Source: Phycisphaerales bacterium | Lineage (GTDB): Bacteria; Planctomycetota; Phycisphaerae; Phycisphaerales; UBA1924 | Length of the DNA stretch: 64,000 bases | Assembly: GCA_029260515.1 (NCBI GenBank) | Contig: JAJDDC010000019.1 | Span: 1 to 64,000 of the forward strand | Direction: 5' to 3' | Notes under the pieces: model-generated | Database searches by the model: none | Seen by the model: the letters and a program-made list of their open reading frames with translations, nothing else | What the model was told of the DNA's origin: nothing | Program-made: the position numbers and the translations under genes | Shown here: positions 47,790 through 56,477 of the stretch, piece after piece | How the letters are laid out: every line of letters begins with the position of its first letter | Position numbering within the stretch: the stretch's first letter is position 1

Positions 47790-49028
47790 ATGACGCTCAA
47801 GCTGCCCATGTACTTCGACCACGCCGCCACGACGCCGACCGACCCGCGTGTCGTCGAGGCGATGCTGCCCTACTTCACCGAGAAGTTCGGCAACCCGGGC
47901 TCGCGGAATCACTGCTTCGGCTGGGAGGCGGAGGACGCGACGAAGCTCGCCCGCAAGCAGGTGGCCGACCTGATCGGCGCCGACCCCAAGGAAATCATCT
48001 TCACCTCGGGCTCGACCGAGGCGAACAACATCGCGATCAAGGGCGGGGCGTCGATGTACGCCCGCAAGCCCGCGGGCGAGGCGGGCCGCGGGCACGTCAT
48101 CACGGACATCATCGAGCACAAGGCCGTCCTCGATCCGTGCAAGCGTTTGCAGAAAGAGGGCTTCGACGTCACGTACCTCGAGCCCGGGCCAGACGGGATC
48201 ATCACGCGGCGGATGGTCGAGAACGCGATGCGCGACGACACCATCCTCGTCTCGATCATGTGGGCCAACAACGAGATCGGGACGATCAACGAGGTCCCGC
48301 AGATCGGCGCGTTGTGCCACGAGAAGAGCGTCATCTTCCACACCGACGCGACGCAGTGGGTCGGCAAGATGCCAACCGACGTCAACGCCGACGGCATCGA
48401 CCTGCTCTCGTTCTCCGGGCACAAGATGTACGGGCCCAAGGGTGTGGGCGCGCTGTACGTCCGGCGCCGGCGCCCGCGCGTCCGCCTCGTCGCCCTCCAG
48501 GAGGGCGGCGGCCAGGAACGCGGCTTCCGTTCGGGCACGCTCAACGTCCCCGGGATCGTCGGCCTGGGCACGGCGTGCGAGATCTGCACGAACGAGATGG
48601 ACAGCGAGCGCGAACGCCTGCTCGCCCTGCGCATCCGCCTCGAGGACGGCATCGTCGCGAAGGTGCCCGAGGTCCAGATCAACGGGCACGCCGACAAGCG
48701 CCTGCCCCACCTGACCAATATCTCCTTCGGCTTCGTCGAGGGCGAGAGCCTGATGATGGAGTGCAAGGACATCGCCATGTCCTCGGGCTCGGCGTGCACC
48801 AGCGCGTCCCTCGAGCCCAGCTATGTCTTGAAGGGCCTGGGCGTGGGCGACGAGCTGGCACACAGCTCGCTGCGGATGAGCCTTGGGCGGTGGTCCAGCG
48901 AGCAGGAGATCGACTACGCGATCGAGACGATCGCCAAGGGCGTCGAGCGCCTCCGGGCCCTGAGCCCGCTGTGGGACATGCACAACGAGGGAATCGACAT
49001 CAGCAAGATCGAGTGGGCGGCGCACTGA
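47790..49028 (+). CDS. iscS: Cysteine desulfurase IscS
   Basis: 412 aa. PLP enzyme that takes sulfur from cysteine for Fe-S assembly and tRNA thiolation. DHAATTPTDPRV (10-21), the PLP lysine in SFSGHKMYGPKG, RSGTLNVPGIVGLG and the mobile-loop cysteine in SSGSACTSASLEPSYVL are all present; the long loop puts it in the IscS (group I) class. It opens an iscS-iscU-iscA cluster. GGGAGGGA about ten bases upstream is the ribosome binding site. Confidence 0.97.
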   Translation: MTLKLPMYFDHAATTPTDPRVVEAMLPYFTEKFGNPGSRNHCFGWEAEDATKLARKQVADLIGADPKEIIFTSGSTEANNIAIKGGASMYARKPAGEAGRGHVITDIIEHKAVLDPCKRLQKEGFDVTYLEPGPDGIITRRMVENAMRDDTILVSIMWANNEIGTINEVPQIGALCHEKSVIFHTDATQWVGKMPTDVNADGIDLLSFSGHKMYGPKGVGALYVRRRRPRVRLVALQEGGGQERGFRSGTLNVPGIVGLGTACEICTNEMDSERERLLALRIRLEDGIVAKVPEVQINGHADKRLPHLTNISFGFVEGESLMMECKDIAMSSGSACTSASLEPSYVLKGLGVGDELAHSSLRMSLGRWSSEQEIDYAIETIAKGVERLRALSPLWDMHNEGIDISKIEWAAH

Positions 49029-49075
49029 GGCGCCGGCAGGAATCACGACCGGACCCATCACCCACGAGGTGAATC

Positions 49076-49495
49076 ATGGCATACAGCAGCAAAGTCATCG
49101 ACCATTACGAGAAGCCGCGGAACGTCGGCTCCTTCGGCACACAGAAGGAGATCAAGGAGCGCAAGGACGTGGGCGTGGGCCTCGTCGGTGCGCCCGAGTG
49201 CGGCGACGTCATGCAGCTGCAGATCAAGGTGGACGAGGCGGGCAACATCGAGGACGCCAAGTTCAAGTGCTTCGGGTGCGGCTCGGCGATCGCCTCCTCG
49301 TCGCTGGCGACCGAGTGGCTCAAGGGCAAGAGCGTTGACGACGGGCTCAAGATCAAGAACACGATGATCGTCGAGGAGCTGGCGCTGCCCCCGGTCAAGA
49401 TCCACTGCTCGGTGCTCGCCGAGGACGCGATCAGGGCGGCCATCGCCGACTACAAGGCCAAGAACGGCGTCCCCGAGGAAGCCAAGGCACACTGA
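49076..49495 (+). CDS. iscU: Fe-S scaffold protein IscU
   Basis: 139 aa. Three ligand cysteines are in APECGDVM, KCFGCGSAIASSS and KIHCSVLAEDA, with the Asp next to the first. The LPPVK motif (ALPPVKIHC) recognised by HscA chaperones is intact, though hscA/hscB are not in the window. It builds [2Fe-2S] clusters from IscS sulfur. It lies 47 bases after iscS, with GAGGTG before its ATG. Confidence 0.97.
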   Translation: MAYSSKVIDHYEKPRNVGSFGTQKEIKERKDVGVGLVGAPECGDVMQLQIKVDEAGNIEDAKFKCFGCGSAIASSSLATEWLKGKSVDDGLKIKNTMIVEELALPPVKIHCSVLAEDAIRAAIADYKAKNGVPEEAKAH

Positions 49496-49611
49496 GCGGG
49501 CGGCCCGGGAACCCGCTTCTCGGACCCAGCGGCTCAAGCCCCCGGGCGAACCGGCCGATCCCGCGGGGCGTACGATCCATGCAGCGCGACGACGCGCGGG
49601 GAAGCAGACGA

Positions 49612-49980
49612 ATGACCACGACACAGACCAGCACCGACACCGCCCAGAGCGACGTGATCCTCTCCGAATCCGCGGCCCGCGAGGTCAAGAAGATCATCGC
49701 CGAGCAGGAGCTCGACGCCGACAAGGTCCGACTCCGCGTGGGCGTCAAGGGCGGCGGGTGCTCGGGCTTCAGCTACATCCTCGACCTGACCGAGTCGAAG
49801 AAGGACACCGACGAGGAGTTCGAGCAGCACGGCGTGAAGGTCATCTGCGACCCCAAGAGCCTGCTCTACCTCGCGGGCGTGACCGTGGACTTCAAGGACG
49901 AGATCATGGGGCGGGGCTTCGTGTTCAACAACCCGAACGCCACGACCTCGTGCGGGTGCGGCTCGAGCTTCGCCGTCTGA
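49612..49980 (+). CDS. iscA: A-type Fe-S carrier protein (IscA/ErpA family)
   Basis: 122 aa from ATG 49612. The HesB/IscA fold has its three conserved cysteines: GGGCSGFSY and the C-terminal SCGCGSSF. It transfers Fe-S clusters from IscU to target proteins. It completes a minimal isc cluster without iscR, hscBA or fdx. A terminator follows. Confidence 0.95.
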   Translation: MTTTQTSTDTAQSDVILSESAAREVKKIIAEQELDADKVRLRVGVKGGGCSGFSYILDLTESKKDTDEEFEQHGVKVICDPKSLLYLAGVTVDFKDEIMGRGFVFNNPNATTSCGCGSSFAV

Positions 49981-50303
49981 CTCGGCGGCCTGGCCCCACC
50001 CCCGAACCGATCGATTCTCCTCTCGAACGCCCCTGGTCGGGGCGTTTTTTTCCGCGCCGCCCAGGGGCTCTGGCGCGCCAGTGCGTCGGGCGGCCCGGCG
50101 CAGGGGGCCGGGGTCGCCTATTTTGACGCCCCGGGGTTGTCGCCCGTGCGCCAGCGTGGGTAGATTGGGTGGTTGAACGGTCAGCCGGCGCCAGCGGGGA
50201 GCCACGAGAGGGAGCAACGGGGTGGGCTGGCGACTCCGGCCGCCCGATACGCGACTCGCCGCCCGGGGCGGCGCGTGGCCGGTCCAGAGCCTGAAGGGGC
50301 CGC
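49981..50303 (+). other. Intergenic region between iscA and the ACT-domain gene
   Basis: 323 bases. It contains the isc terminator (50027-50051) and a promoter candidate: TTGTCG (50137-50142), 18 bases, TAGATT (50161-50166), giving a leader of about 130 bases for the ACT-domain gene. No gene or known RNA motif is seen in the rest. Confidence 0.55.
50027..50051 (+). terminator. Intrinsic terminator of the isc cluster
   Basis: ACGCCCC (50027-50033) pairs with GGGGCGT (50039-50045) around a 5-base loop, followed by a run of T to 50051. Confidence 0.93.
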
Positions 50304-50783
50304 ATGAGCAGCAGCGAGGCAGTGACGCCCGAGACCGCGCGTGGATTCGCGCCGCCGACCGTGACGCAGTTCAGCGTCTTCCTCTCCAACAAGGTCGGCA
50401 AGCTGCTGGATCTCGTCGAAAACTTCGACGAGTCGCCCTGCCATATCTGCGCCATCTCGGTGCACGAGGCGTCGGACCACGCCGTCGTCCGCATCATCGC
50501 CAACAACGCGGCGACCGCGAAGAAGATGCTCCGCGAGGACGGGCTGCCGTTCTCCGAGCACGACGTGCTCGTCGTCGAGCTGGGCGAGGGGCACTCGCTG
50601 TCGAGCATGTGCCTGTGCCTGCTGGGCGCCGAGTTGAACATCCATTTCGCGTACCCCCTGATGACCAAGCCCGGCGGGTCGGCGACCATCGCCCTGGCCG
50701 TCGACGACCCGACGCTGGGCGGGCAGATCCTGCGCCGCAAGGGCTTCACGCTCTACGGCGAAGCCGATCTGCCGTCGGTCTGA
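50304..50783 (+). CDS. ACT-domain protein
   Basis: 159 aa, two tandem ACT-like units of the beta-alpha-beta-beta-alpha-beta type: VTQFSVFLSNKVGKLLDLVENFDE then, after a break, SMCLCLLGAELNIHFAYPLM. ACT pairs bind amino acids as allosteric sensors. There is no catalytic domain, so it must regulate a partner; the partner is not evident from neighbours. AAGGGG upstream supports the start. Confidence 0.87.
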   Translation: MSSSEAVTPETARGFAPPTVTQFSVFLSNKVGKLLDLVENFDESPCHICAISVHEASDHAVVRIIANNAATAKKMLREDGLPFSEHDVLVVELGEGHSLSSMCLCLLGAELNIHFAYPLMTKPGGSATIALAVDDPTLGGQILRRKGFTLYGEADLPSV

Positions 50784-51812: not shown

Positions 51813-51841
51813 TGTTCACGATTATGGTATAGGAGTGAACA
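51813..51841. promoter_or_regulatory. Inverted repeat over the redoxin promoter/start (possible operator)
   Basis: TGTTCAC (51813-51819) and GTGAACA (51835-51841) form a 7-bp inverted repeat with a 15-base spacer; its last base is the A of the redoxin ATG. The spacer holds -10-like sequence (TATGGT, TATAGG) and AGGAG. A dimeric repressor bound here would block transcription of this gene. Confidence 0.5.
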
Positions 51842-52896
51842 TGCGCCGGCAACACCTCTTCCCCGGGATCGCCCTGCTCGCCCTGATTGCTTGCACGGCG
51901 TACGCGGGCCCGTACGCGCCACACGTCACGCCCGAGACGTCCCGCGAGATCATCCAGGGCGTGCGTGAGGCGTTCCGCCCGCCCGCACTGCTGATCGGCG
52001 ATCGGGCGCCCGCGTTCGAGCCACGGGCGTGGGCCAGGGGCGAGCCTATCGGCACGTTCGCGCCCGGGCATGTGTACGTCCTCGACTTCTGGGCGAGCTG
52101 GTGCGCGCCGTGTATCGCCGCGATGCCCCACATCAGCCGGCTGCAAGAGCAGCACACCGACGACGCCGTCATGATCGCCGTCAACGTCCGCGAGGTCGAA
52201 CCCGGATCGGGGCGGATGCTCGACGCGGCGGCGCCCGAGGACGTCGCGGTGTCTCTTGAGAAAATGGGCGACAAGCTGCGCCTGCCGGTCGCGATCGGCG
52301 ACCGCGCCCTGGACGCCGCCTGGATCGGCGACGCCGGGCGATCGACGCTCCCGACGTACGCCGTCATCGACCAGGAGACGAGGCTCGCGTGGATCGGCGG
52401 CGACGCCGAGGGCGTCGGGGAGGTCGTCGAGCGCCTCGTCGCGGGGGCGTACGACACTGACGCGGCGCGGCGAGAGCAGCTGGGCGCCGCCCGCGTCCAG
52501 CACCTGGGTCGCACGATCAACGAGGCCGCGGTGAACGGGAACGCCGAGGGCGACCTATCGCGTTTCTACGAGCTGTGCGCGGCGTTGTCGTACGCGGCGG
52601 AAGCCGGCGAGGCGCGGTACCTGGCCTCGATCATGGACACGGTGCTGACACACCCGCTGCTGGACGGGCGACGCGACCTTGCGACTGCGCAGCGGGGCAG
52701 CCTGCTCGCGTGCGAGCTGACCGCGTGGCGCGACCCGGAGGCGATCCGGGTTCACGCCCTCGCGACGCACATGGGCGACGACACACCCAGCGCGATCCGC
52801 CTGTGCGAGCGGGCGCTGGACGCCGCCGACGCGGACGACGTGGACACACGCGCGCGGATCACGGCGGACCTGGAGCGGTACCGGACGGGCGGGTAG
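51841..52896 (+). CDS. Exported TlpA-type thioredoxin with helical C-terminus (first of three)
   Basis: 351 aa. The signal peptide ends near ACTAYAG. The thioredoxin domain (about 50-205) has FWASWCAPCIAAMPH with Cys-88/Cys-91 and the cis-proline segment STLPTYAVID. Residues 205-351 are helical and TPR-like. TlpA-type proteins keep periplasmic cysteines reduced or serve in cytochrome maturation. Ala-Pro between the cysteines is common for TlpA/ResA. It starts a series of three related genes. Confidence 0.92.
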   Translation: MRRQHLFPGIALLALIACTAYAGPYAPHVTPETSREIIQGVREAFRPPALLIGDRAPAFEPRAWARGEPIGTFAPGHVYVLDFWASWCAPCIAAMPHISRLQEQHTDDAVMIAVNVREVEPGSGRMLDAAAPEDVAVSLEKMGDKLRLPVAIGDRALDAAWIGDAGRSTLPTYAVIDQETRLAWIGGDAEGVGEVVERLVAGAYDTDAARREQLGAARVQHLGRTINEAAVNGNAEGDLSRFYELCAALSYAAEAGEARYLASIMDTVLTHPLLDGRRDLATAQRGSLLACELTAWRDPEAIRVHALATHMGDDTPSAIRLCERALDAADADDVDTRARITADLERYRTGG

Positions 52897-52930
52897 GGCG
52901 CCCTGGCGAGAACTCGAACAGGAGCACGAC

Positions 52931-53974
52931 ATGCGGACGACGCGCGGGACATTCAGATACACGGCGTTTGTGGTGTTGCTCTGCCCGGCGATCGTGGTCG
53001 CGCAGCCCGATCCCGCGCACAGATCCGCCCCGGACGGTGTACGGGTCGAGGCCCTCGCGGATATCGTGGAGTTTGAGAGGCCCGAAGTCTGGATCGGCAC
53101 GCGCGCGCCCGCGCTGCGCCTCGAGCGGTTCTTCAAGGGCGAGGCCGTCGAGCGCTTCGAGCGCGGGCGGGTGTACGTGGTCGAACTCTGGGCGACGTGG
53201 TGCGCGCCGTGCATCGCGGGTTTCCCCCACATGACGCGCCTCCAGGAGCGGTACGCCGACGCCGTCACGTTCATCGGCGTGGACATCTGGGATGTGCAGG
53301 AGAACGAGCCCGCGCCGGACCGGATCGAGCGTGTCGGCGCGTTCGTCGAGGCCCAGGGCGAGCGGATGGGGTACCGCGTTGCGATCGAGCGCGAGGGGGA
53401 GATGGTCGAGTCCTGGCTGACCGCGTCGAGCCAGACCGGCATCCCGATGGCGTACATCGTCGATGCGTCGGGGGCCGTCGCGTGGATGGGGTCTCCGATG
53501 GACATCGATGCGCCGCTCGCCGACGTCGTGTCGGGCGAGCACGACTACGAGAAGACCGCCGAATCTCTGCGCCACGGGCTGTTCGTGGTCCAGGCGGACC
53601 AGGCGTTCCGGGAGGGTGTGCGCTCGCCCGACGAAGACGAGGCCGCGCGGGCGTACAGGATCGGGCGGGCGCTGGCGCGGGAGGATTACGCGGGCGAGTG
53701 GGGGCGGCAGAATCTGATGGCGTGGCACGTGCTCCACGATGATCAGATCGTGCACCGCGACCTCGGGTTCGCGTACGAGATCGCCCGCAACGCCTACGAG
53801 CTGAGCGAGGGGGAGAAGGCGATCGCGTTGTACTGCTACGCGCTCGCGTCGTTCAGAGTCGGGCAACGCGAGCAGGCGGTCGAGCTGCAGACACGGGCGA
53901 TCGAGCTGCTCGAGCACGAGCAGATGCGAGGCATGTTCGAGGACCGCCTCGCGGAGTACTCGCGCGAGGAGTAG
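52931..53974 (+). CDS. Exported TlpA-type thioredoxin with helical C-terminus (second of three)
   Basis: 347 aa. The signal peptide covers about 1-24. The thioredoxin domain opens with VWIGTRAPALRLERFFKGEAVERFERGRVYVVELWATWCAPC, giving Cys-91/Cys-94, and continues to GIPMAYIVDASGAVAWMG with its cis-proline. The helical C-terminus (about 215-347) shares the pattern ALASFRVGQREQAVELQTRAIELLE with the third paralogue, so these two are closer to each other than to the first. AGGAG eight bases upstream; 34 bases after the first gene. Confidence 0.92.
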   Translation: MRTTRGTFRYTAFVVLLCPAIVVAQPDPAHRSAPDGVRVEALADIVEFERPEVWIGTRAPALRLERFFKGEAVERFERGRVYVVELWATWCAPCIAGFPHMTRLQERYADAVTFIGVDIWDVQENEPAPDRIERVGAFVEAQGERMGYRVAIEREGEMVESWLTASSQTGIPMAYIVDASGAVAWMGSPMDIDAPLADVVSGEHDYEKTAESLRHGLFVVQADQAFREGVRSPDEDEAARAYRIGRALAREDYAGEWGRQNLMAWHVLHDDQIVHRDLGFAYEIARNAYELSEGEKAIALYCYALASFRVGQREQAVELQTRAIELLEHEQMRGMFEDRLAEYSREE

Positions 53975-54126
53975 TCCGCCCCCGGCACGACGACGGGTCC
54001 GCCGACGACGCGTACGCCCCGCCCGGGTTTCGGGCGAGCCTCCTGACGCCCTGCGCCCGATCTGCGCCGGAATAGCACCCCCACACCTACAGTTGTCCAC
54101 CCGACAGGGGCTCTCTGGGCAGGGAT

Positions 54127-54154
54127 CGTTCGGGCGGTCTGCGTGGCCCGAACG
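54127..54154 (+). promoter_or_regulatory. Hairpin in the leader of the third redoxin gene
   Basis: CGTTCGGGC pairs perfectly with GCCCGAACG around a 10-base loop, 58 bases before the ATG, in a 237-base gap. There is no T-tract. It may be an attenuator-like or mRNA-stabilising element; a TACAGT hexamer lies upstream near 54088. Confidence 0.4.
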
Positions 54155-54211
54155 CCGCCCCAACAGCCTGGCCACGGCCCGGATGGGCCTGCCCCACACA
54201 GGAGTGCCCCG

Positions 54212-55366
54212 ATGCGTATGAACCTGACGAACACCCTCGGCGCCGTGCTGCTCGGCGCGTGCGTCCTGCCGGCTGCCGCCCAGGACGCCAAACCCCAGAC
54301 CGCCGAAGACACGATCAAGGAGGCCTGCCCCGCGGGCTGCGAGAAAGCCTGCTGCGCCGAGGCGTGCGCCGACGACTGCGAGAAGGCGTGCTGCGCACAG
54401 GAGTGCGCCGCGGACTGCGCCGAGGCGTGCTGCGCCGACCTGTCCAAGATGGTCAAGGGTTTCAAGCAGCCCGAGCTGTGGGTCGGCGACAAGGCGCCGA
54501 ACCTGCACCTGGCCAAGTTCGTCAAGGGCGACTCGGTCCAGGGCTTCGAAGCGGGGCGGACGTACGTCGTCGAGTTCTGGGCGACCTGGTGCCGCCCGTG
54601 CATCGAGGCGTTCCCGCACCTGAGCAAGCTGCAGGAAGAGCACGCCGACAATGTGACGTTCATGGGCATTAACATTTTCGACACCAAGCGGGGCGAGGCG
54701 CAGGGCGCCCGCGTCGAGCGTGTTACCGAGTTCGTCGCCGACCAGGGCGACCGGATGGGCTACACCGTCGCGATCGAGGACGGCGAGAAGATGGGCAACG
54801 CCTGGATGAAGCCCTCGGGGCAGAACAGCATCCCCGCCGCATTCATCGTTGACGGCGAGGGCAAGATCGCCTGGATCGGGCACCCCATGGGCATGGACAA
54901 GCCCCTGGCCCAGATCGCCGCGGGCGAGTTCGACCGCGAGGCCGCGGCCATCGAGTCGCGGAACCAGAAGCTCGCCCAGACCGGATTCCAGCAGTTCGGC
55001 AAGGGCATCACCCAGGGCACCGCCGAGGAGGCCCGGGACGCGTACAAACTCGCCCGAGCCATGGCCCGCCAGGTCTTCTGGGACGAGCCCGGAGCACTCA
55101 ACGCGATGGCCTGGCCCGTGCTCGATCACCCGGCGGTAAAACACCGCGACTACGAGTTCGCGCTCTTCGCAGCGAACCGCGCCTTTGAGGTGACCAAGGG
55201 CGAGGACCCCACGGTCCTCGACACATTCGCACTCGCCCAGTTCAAGACGGGCGACTCCGCGGGCGCGATCAAGACCCAGACCAGGGCGCTCGAGTTGCTC
55301 GAGGGCGACGAGGGTCGCGACGAGATGGTCACCCGCCTCGACGAGTACAAGGCCGCCAAGCCCTGA
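54212..55366 (+). CDS. Exported TlpA-type thioredoxin with tandem Cys-rich domain (third of three)
   Basis: 384 aa from ATG 54212 (AGGAG at eight bases). The signal peptide ends near PAAAQ. Residues 39-76 are three tandem 13-residue units of form C-x3-C-x3-C-C-x3, with Cys at 39, 43, 47, 48, 52, 56, 60, 61, 65, 69, 73 and 74. The thioredoxin domain (about 85-245) has FWATWCRPCIEAFPH with Cys-127/Cys-130. A TPR-like helical C-terminus completes it. The first two redoxins lack the Cys-rich part. The repeat could bind metal or act as a cysteine relay; neither can be settled from sequence. Confidence 0.9.
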   Translation: MRMNLTNTLGAVLLGACVLPAAAQDAKPQTAEDTIKEACPAGCEKACCAEACADDCEKACCAQECAADCAEACCADLSKMVKGFKQPELWVGDKAPNLHLAKFVKGDSVQGFEAGRTYVVEFWATWCRPCIEAFPHLSKLQEEHADNVTFMGINIFDTKRGEAQGARVERVTEFVADQGDRMGYTVAIEDGEKMGNAWMKPSGQNSIPAAFIVDGEGKIAWIGHPMGMDKPLAQIAAGEFDREAAAIESRNQKLAQTGFQQFGKGITQGTAEEARDAYKLARAMARQVFWDEPGALNAMAWPVLDHPAVKHRDYEFALFAANRAFEVTKGEDPTVLDTFALAQFKTGDSAGAIKTQTRALELLEGDEGRDEMVTRLDEYKAAKP

Positions 55367-55472: not shown

Positions 55473-56477
55473 TCACGCCAGCCCGCGGGCGCCCAGATCG
55501 TGCTCGGCGTCCAGGGCCGCCTGGCAGCCCATGCCCGCCGCGGTCACCGCCTGGCGGTAGGTCGCGTCCGCGACGTCGCCCGCGGCGTAGACGCCCGCGA
55601 TGTTGGTCCGGCTCGACCTCGACCCGAGCTCGATGTACCCCGCGTCGTCGAACTCGAGCCCGGATTCACGCAGGAACCTCGTCGCCGGCGTGTGCCCGAT
55701 CGCGATGAACAGCCCCCCCACCTCCAGCTCGCTCTGCTCGCCCGTGACCGTGTCCTCGAGGAGGACCGCCCGGATCTTCTCGGCGCCCATGTCGTCGGTG
55801 CGGCTGAGCACGTCCACAACCGTCTTGTTCCAGAGGACCTCGGCGTTGTCCTTGGCGAGCAGACGCTCCTGCATCGTCTTGCTCGCCCGGAAGGCGTCGC
55901 GCCGGTGGATGATGTAGACGGTGCTGGCGAACTTGGTGAGGTAGTTCGCCTCCTCCATCGCCGTGTCCCCGCCCCCGACGACAGCCATGGGCTGGTCGCG
56001 GAACATGGGCAGGGCGCCGTCACAGACCGCGCACGCGCTCACGCCCCCGCCCGCGGTCGCGAGGCGCAGCTCGCTCTCGAGGCCCAGCCAGTTGGCCGTC
56101 GCCCCGGTCGCGATAATGACGGCGTGGGCTCGCACACTCGTGCCGTCCGAGATGTGCAGGGTGTGGGGCGAACCGTCGCGCGAGAACTCGACCCGCTCGA
56201 CGTCCTCGCCGACGATCTGGGTCCCGAACCGCTCGGCCTGCTGCTGGAAGCCGGCCATCATCTCGGGCCCCGCGACACCATCCGGAAATCCAGGGTAGTT
56301 CTCGACGTCGGTCGTCAGCATCAGCTGGCCCCCGGGCAGGATCGGGCCCGGGTCCTGCTTGGGCACGCCCACGTAGACCACGGGGTCGAGGCTGGCCCGG
56401 GCGGCGTAGATCGCCGCGGTCCACCCGGCGGGGCCGGACCCGATGATCACCAGTTTCTTGACGTCGTTGTCATTCAC
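55473..56477 (-). CDS. trxB: Thioredoxin reductase
   Basis: 334 aa. It passes electrons from NADPH through FAD to thioredoxin in the cytoplasm. FAD-binding GSGPAGWTAA (13-22), the redox motif CAVCDG (Cys-149/Cys-152), NADP-binding GGGDTAMEEA, the HRR(D) loop and the C-terminal GVYAAGDV segment are in place. An unusual PKQDPGPILPGGQ insert follows the first helix. It lies tail-to-tail with the redoxin cluster; direct reduction of those exported proteins would need a membrane relay such as CcdA, which is not in view. Confidence 0.95.
   Translation of the reverse strand: MNDNDVKKLVIIGSGPAGWTAAIYAARASLDPVVYVGVPKQDPGPILPGGQLMLTTDVENYPGFPDGVAGPEMMAGFQQQAERFGTQIVGEDVERVEFSRDGSPHTLHISDGTSVRAHAVIIATGATANWLGLESELRLATAGGGVSACAVCDGALPMFRDQPMAVVGGGDTAMEEANYLTKFASTVYIIHRRDAFRASKTMQERLLAKDNAEVLWNKTVVDVLSRTDDMGAEKIRAVLLEDTVTGEQSELEVGGLFIAIGHTPATRFLRESGLEFDDAGYIELGSRSSRTNIAGVYAAGDVADATYRQAVTAAGMGCQAALDAEHDLGARGLA

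Follow-up and report, generated by a model that had tools for sequence, protein, structure and literature searches.

The window, meaning the whole 64,000-nucleotide stretch of DNA that was analysed, contains a redoxin gene with a cysteine-rich tail at 54212–55366 on the plus strand. Its product, P0001, has 384 aa. The frame is open, has the codon-position G+C contrast typical of coding sequence, and starts at an ATG 7 nt past an AGGAG (54200–54204). The genome around it is a 3.8-Mb draft in 113 contigs. Residues 1–23 (54212–54280) comprise a signal peptide predicted by eye, ending in A-A-A before Q, and the aligned orthologs likewise have a signal-like start. The ortholog alignment then delimits a variable N-terminal tail of residues 24–86 (54281–54469). 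It contains three Cys units, CPAGCEKACC (54326–54355), CADDCEKACC (54365–54394), and CAADCAEACC (54404–54433), the third of which shares its position with the last unit of the orthologs L011 and L012 and with the single unit of L013. These features and the domains that follow are all on the plus strand.

The redoxin, or thioredoxin-like, domain covers residues 91–222 (54482–54877; PF08534, E 3.1e-11; PF00578, E 1.9e-10), with both Pfam scores above gathering (43.7 bits vs 26.6, and 41.2 vs 26). Its active site is W-C-R-P-C at residues 126–130 (54587–54601). C127 and C130 are invariant in the ortholog alignment, which consists of 27 of the 29 orthologs and a paralog, with L024 and L027 left out. 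Pro 208 (54833–54835) is also invariant and lies at what we take to be the usual cis-proline place of the redoxin fold. The best Foldseek neighbours are 4nmu, 3gl3, and 1st9, and the probability of 1.00 to the ResA-type structures 4nmu and 1st9 indicates a ResA/TlpA fold; TlpA (1jfu) and the TlpA complexes with ScoI and CoxB (4txo, 4txv) were also found. P0001 falls below every NCBIfam subfamily cut-off for TlpA, ResA, DsbE, and StoA (StoA 43.3 against 210, TlpA 33 against 230). Residues 242–381 (54935–55354) comprise an all-helical, TPR-like C-terminal domain, whose helices have high confidence in the AlphaFold model and whose TPR_12 match (E 0.022) is below cut-off. P0001 is thus similar to the TlpA/ResA/StoA/CcmG-type reductases in its redoxin fold, W-C-x-P-C motif, and signal-like N-terminus. 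In contrast, it carries a Cys tail and a helical C-terminal domain in addition, and its PDB sequence matches begin only at about residue 84. It is apparently an exported TlpA/ResA-like redoxin.

The tail cysteines occupy residues 39, 43, 47, 48, 52, 56, 60, 61, 65, 69, 73, and 74. They form three C-x3-C-x3-C-C units with three CC pairs and a period of 13 residues. A sequence-only reading of the window had reported this three-unit repeat on a thioredoxin-like protein at 54326–54433, and the reading frame, the Cys positions, and the presence of Cys units in all three genomes of the genus that were compared bear it out. Its count of twelve Cys in 36 residues is correct, while the span it gave, residues 39–76, is to be read as 39–74. 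The DNA beneath the array is a 39-nt repeat of 2.6 copies with 80% matches, and the units have 29–30 of 39 nt and 7–8 of 13 aa in common. TGC is the codon of all 15 Cys in the frame. The two-unit DNA pattern occurs in the genome solely at the array (2 overlapping matches; control 0). The single-unit DNA pattern was dropped as a detector, its match rate being near or below control (26 matches in the genome vs 82 for the reversed control).

No family in Pfam or NCBIfam covers the tail, and a PDB sequence search at E 10 gave no match to it. The suggestion that no described domain has this form is therefore indirectly supported for the tail and for the small unit-bearing proteins that were tested (see below). 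The enzyme itself is ordinary; within the reach of the searches, its tail is a variant that has not been described. The proposed placement of the Cys along one helix face fails. Plotted on a helix of 100 degrees per residue, the twelve Cys have a mean resultant of 0.08, below the 0.215 mean for random positions, and one unit alone spans 180 degrees. The best fit is 83 degrees per residue, which is not an alpha helix. The AlphaFold model is also against it, with pLDDT of 33–58 from residue 24 to about 65, short helices at 56–61 and 67–74, and no continuous helix, compared to mostly above 93 in the redoxin and C-terminal domains. Most of the Cys tail is thus predicted to be disordered in the apo model.

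Two further redoxin genes precede that of P0001 in tandem. The first (51838–52896, plus, start uncertain; PF08534) has 31% identity to P0001, and the second (52931–53974, plus; PF00578) has 45% identity over residues 81–380; both lack the Cys tail. The tandem redoxins at 51838–55366 would represent a local gene amplification in which copies 1 and 2 have strongly diverged. In the sister genome G284 and in G131, a single redoxin occupies the same place. A search for related loci among genome contigs gave a single remote one. Upstream lie IscS-like, IscU-like, IscA-like, and ACT_8 genes (47790–50783, plus; PF00266, PF01592, PF01521, PF19571), and a convergent thioredoxin-reductase-like flavoprotein gene follows at 55473–56477 on the minus strand (PF07992, E 3.1e-47). 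Among the 29 ortholog loci, an ACT_8-type motif is found upstream in 26 (contig ends account for two of the three misses), an IscA motif in 19, and a TrxB-type motif downstream in 8, within flanks of up to 1.5 kb. The gene order of the P0001 region is the same in L103 and also in L105, there without the TrxB gene. By their gene context, the orthologs of P0001 are one syntenic gene.

The isc-type genes and the four Cys of each unit raise the idea that the tail is an Fe-S cluster site loaded by its neighbours. The isc neighbourhood is, however, also kept in orthologs without a Cys tail, and the isc machinery presumably works in the cytosol, whereas P0001 is apparently exported. Pfam and NCBIfam find no Fe-S domain in P0001, and we know of no ferredoxin spacing that the C-x3-C-x3-C-C unit matches. 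An Fe-S site is consequently considered highly improbable. Metal binding, as put forward in the sequence-only reading, keeps indirect support from His-rich syntenic tails and from metal genes beside some unit-bearing proteins; its Fe-S version has no specific support, since the isc genes are the general neighbourhood of the redoxin, including members without a Cys tail.

Relatives were sought in 400 genomes of the order, 324 of which have a match at E 1e-20, and the best 29 ortholog loci were studied. Among the matches listed, a Cys unit precedes the redoxin in 4 of 163 genomes of the family, by a pattern that misses other spacings. All three genomes of the genus that were compared have Cys units in this gene; the two others (L011 and L012) have two units in the same place, 15 residues apart. 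In a second genus, G131 has one Cys unit in the ortholog. The unit count in the four Cys-tailed orthologs is thus 3, 2, 2, and 1, and the domain-proximal unit aligns in all four. A 13-residue period as a conserved property was rejected, since the spacing is 15 in the sister species L011/L012 and 16–21 in other two-unit proteins. The sequence comparison indicates that the conserved entity is the 10-residue unit and not a 13-residue repeat. In the tree, the three congeners cluster (98/93) while L013 is placed elsewhere with weak support (88/82). A single gain of the array followed by losses, or two gains, may both fit this tree, and the weakly supported placement of L013 does not separate them.

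The variable number and spacing of the units, the speed at which relatives gain and lose tail ligands, and the disorder of the tail in the AlphaFold model are what would be expected of a short Cys unit undergoing near-neutral tandem expansion in an unconstrained linker, with little function. Against this, a comparison of L011 with L012 finds none of the 8 Cys altered and an amino-acid change at 4 of 26 tail codons, although evidence for selection on the tail Cys is modest because this is one pair only. The last unit is also kept in L013, L011, and L012 at 49–59% protein identity, and the unit is present in other families and a second class. Expansion with little function is judged unlikely.

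The tails of the other orthologs are enriched in His. In the 26 orthologs without Cys units, His makes up 48 of 745 tail residues (6.4%) and 129 of 7717 (1.7%) in the rest, with tail starts set by hand and the counts not independent because the orthologs are related and many come from one genus. Shuffling within proteins gives a mean of 15.6 tail His (sd 3.7, maximum 30 in 5000 shuffles) against the 48 observed. At least two His are found in 13 of these tails and at least three in 7, while 7 have none. As a control, 32 other putatively exported open frames of the loci studied, chosen by a crude signal-peptide rule, have 1.6% His in their first 28 residues, with at least two His in 4 of 32 and at least three in none. 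In L016, H-x3-H-x3-H-H lines up exactly with the Cys unit of L013 and P0001, anchored on the following L-x-x-L-V-P; its shuffle P of 0.004 applies to that tail alone, which was picked after inspection. Across all 24 anchored tails, with L032 and L037 left out for having no anchor, the register excess is weak (14 vs 9.5 expected, P 0.06). At these register positions, L014, from the sister species of L016, lacks any ligand residue. From these alignments, the tail evolves fast, and where it carries anything, this tends to be metal-ligand residues.

These His-rich tails bear on two further explanations. If the tail were a thiol relay or redox buffer, its C-x3-C pairs and vicinal CC would cycle between thiol and disulfide and trade electrons with WCRPC, with metal being incidental. 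Such a role would suit twelve Cys beside a redoxin active site and an adjoining thioredoxin-reductase-like gene. Nevertheless, that TrxB-like enzyme is presumably cytosolic and so across the membrane, the unit also occurs in small exported-looking proteins without a redoxin domain, and the equivalent ortholog tail is often His-rich without Cys. Metal coordination is favoured over an electron relay because His replaces Cys in the tails and is incapable of disulfide chemistry; the relay is regarded as rather improbable. A disulfide-linked structural or anchoring tail, in which the Cys cross-link oligomers or an envelope layer, is consistent with the exported look and Cys-richness of the tails and with the lipoprotein-like appearance, by eye, of several unit-bearing proteins. 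The replacement of Cys by His in many ortholog tails argues against it, and structural disulfides seldom come in dense CC clusters, so that anchoring seems very unlikely.

P0001 is not the only home of the motif. An in-frame unit with a consensus of about C-[GA]-x-[DGN]-C-x-K-[APS]-C-C occurs in small, Cys-rich proteins with an exported or lipoprotein-like look, judged by eye. These are L100, L101, L102, L138–L143, L147, L149, L159, and L163, and none has a redoxin domain. The unit-bearing proteins span other Planctomycetota families and a second class, to which L102 belongs. Compared with P0001, the small Planctomycetota proteins have the C-x3-C-x-K-x-C-C unit and the export look in common, and differ in lacking the redoxin domain. 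Twenty pattern places were picked by eye for unit-like translation, 10 of which lie in plausible exported Cys-rich frames (L138–L143, L145–L147, L149) and 10 of which do not. Of the 29 units gathered from these and earlier places, 25 have G or A at position 2, 28 have D, G, or N at position 4, and 27 have A, P, or S at position 8, a consensus that is descriptive because the search pattern itself demanded Lys at position 7 and some of the set was picked by eye. Extra copies inside L101 and L163, outside the search pattern, keep the D/K/P pattern and give independent support.

Broader scans are noisier. Without Lys, the two-unit pattern has matches in 80 of 400 genomes, for the most part in TGY-rich low complexity; only G160 and G297 were recognised as real among the matches listed, and the P0001 genome, G284, and G389 are also counted. 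With one Lys, the two-unit pattern matches 2 of 392 genomes of the phylum (G000, G744), and the control has 1 match in another genome. Another unit scan gave 9 genomes with a match and a plausible exported protein in 3 (G744, G471, G779). The pattern search proposed in the sequence-only reading thus returned mostly raw DNA matches that are low-complexity or out of frame, and a coherent set of in-frame, exported-looking, Cys-rich proteins remains. No Pfam family was found for the four proteins tested (L100, L101, L102, L142), and no NCBIfam family for the six tested (the same four, L139, and L141), where L139 has a sub-cut-off E of 0.055. At E 10, L102 has no PDB match and L100 has only an unrelated synthetase (E 1.7). 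A tblastn search of L102 against plasmids gave no match, and no description of C-x3-C-x3-C-C or CX3CXKXCC was found in the open-access literature searched.

The genes beside the small proteins vary. In L101:6005-6932, L140:1763-2817, and L141:2435-3516, a Cys-unit lipoprotein is directly followed by a Cu/Zn superoxide dismutase (PF00080) on the same strand, so that the dismutase is downstream in all three loci of one genus. L142:1871-2971 contains small Cys-rich frames and then an HMA-domain lipoprotein (PF00403, E 1.5e-08), and by its gene content is possibly a metal-handling cluster. The L102 unit protein adjoins a CobW-type GTPase gene. L100, L145–L147, and L149, from another family, have a uvrC and/or pyrC-like gene around them, which is uninformative on metal, and no metal gene was found beside L138, L139, and L143 as far as their neighbours were scanned.

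Further proteins have compositions of their own. L138:1214-1769 has two adjacent lipoprotein-like frames on the minus strand with mixed His/Cys CGHGHDHGAKCCGKC and CPAGCDKPCC, next to a recO-like gene. L139:2199-2861 is exported-looking, with numerous repeats of the K-x-D-C-D-K type and two CAKDCxKPCC units, and the gene after it has a Clp-protease-like domain. L145:1497-2531 and L146:2205-3335 are exported-looking and 340–390 aa long. Their repeats centre on A-K-A-A-Q-V-A-Q-V-K-S and are separated by Cys or CC; both proteins end in CGPDCTKACC and have a pyrC-like gene nearby. L184:1268-1830 (G065:C28), from the same family as the P0001 genome, is exported-looking with a very Cys-rich mature part (CCVCCEEGCPCCEDGCSC and a CGGVCDAPCC unit), and from its composition looks like an exported metallothionein.

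The tail resembles metallothioneins such as SmtA and mycobacterial MymT in its dense Cys clusters, CC pairs, Lys beside Cys, and predicted unfolded apo state. Mammalian metallothionein contains C-K-K-S-C-C. In contrast to metallothioneins, the unit has a regular C-x3-C-x3-C-C spacing and is fused to an enzyme or carried by exported-looking proteins, the tail being a segment of a 384-aa protein. No homology of the tail to a known metallothionein was found (PDB at E 10, Pfam), and it is therefore not filed in that family, though it may work like one. The copper storage proteins Csp1 and Csp3 have many Cys for Cu(I), and Csp1 is exported, according to a passage of PMC7558416; the P0001 tail is also Cys-rich and exported-looking. 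The same passage places the Csp Cys inside a four-helix bundle, whereas the P0001 tail is not a continuous helix in the model and its Cys would be spread round a helix. It also distinguishes metallothioneins, which fold on metal binding, from Csps, which are preformed bundles (PMC7558416).

ScsC (suppressor of copper sensitivity C) and P0001 are both periplasmic-type thioredoxin-like proteins, and P0001 matches the redoxin/TlpA type (Pfam, NCBIfam, Foldseek). ScsC, a trimeric isomerase, is from a different thioredoxin-fold family from the TlpA type. A passage of PMC8900818 describes ScsC as a periplasmic thioredoxin-like disulfide isomerase that binds Cu(I) and mentions no Cys-repeat tail, and one of PMC6696091 names ScoI, a copper chaperone, and COX II as proteins that TlpA reduces. 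Taken together, a TlpA/ResA-type host, Cu(I) binding by ScsC, and a disordered, metallothionein-like apo tail lead to the reading of a tail that resembles a metallothionein and is held in the reduced state by its own redoxin, the likeliest metal being Cu(I).

With about even confidence, the segment is regarded as a flexible, fast-evolving tail of metal ligands at the N-terminus of an exported TlpA/ResA-like thiol-disulfide reductase. We infer that the protein is exported, that the tail binds metal and which metal, that the redoxin reduces the tail, and that metal is transferred. Each 10-residue unit would offer four clustered thiolates, and three units twelve. In the periplasm the tail would bind a soft metal, most likely Cu(I) and possibly Zn, and like a metallothionein would be unfolded without metal and fold on binding. 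The adjoining WCRPC redoxin would keep the tail thiols reduced or return them to the reduced state, and, in the way that TlpA acts on ScoI, may also reduce a client's Cys ligands ahead of metal handover. Partners would dock on the helical C-terminal domain. Against a metal tail, it is not conserved in the family, L014 has no in-register ligand residue, the register excess over the anchored His tails is weak, and several unit-bearing proteins have no metal gene beside them. The tail thiols may also simply be oxidised in the periplasm. A more tentative idea, which we hold as possible, is a self-reducing metallothionein, in which a periplasmic redoxin has an expandable metal-thiolate tail. Its portable unit would be a general exported soft-metal module in Planctomycetota, serving in the redoxin tail, in lipoproteins partnered with superoxide dismutase, and elsewhere, and would be swapped for His position for position in a related tail.

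Periplasmic thiols tend toward the oxidised state, and for this reason bacterial metal-thiolate proteins outside the cytosol are, to our knowledge, little known. With a Cys cluster of its own, a thiol reductase would offer a simple answer to thiol oxidation. The recurring unit provides a handle on small, exported-looking, Cys-rich proteins that have no family in the libraries searched, and is perhaps a clue to the metallation of extracytoplasmic Cu/Zn superoxide dismutase in these bacteria.
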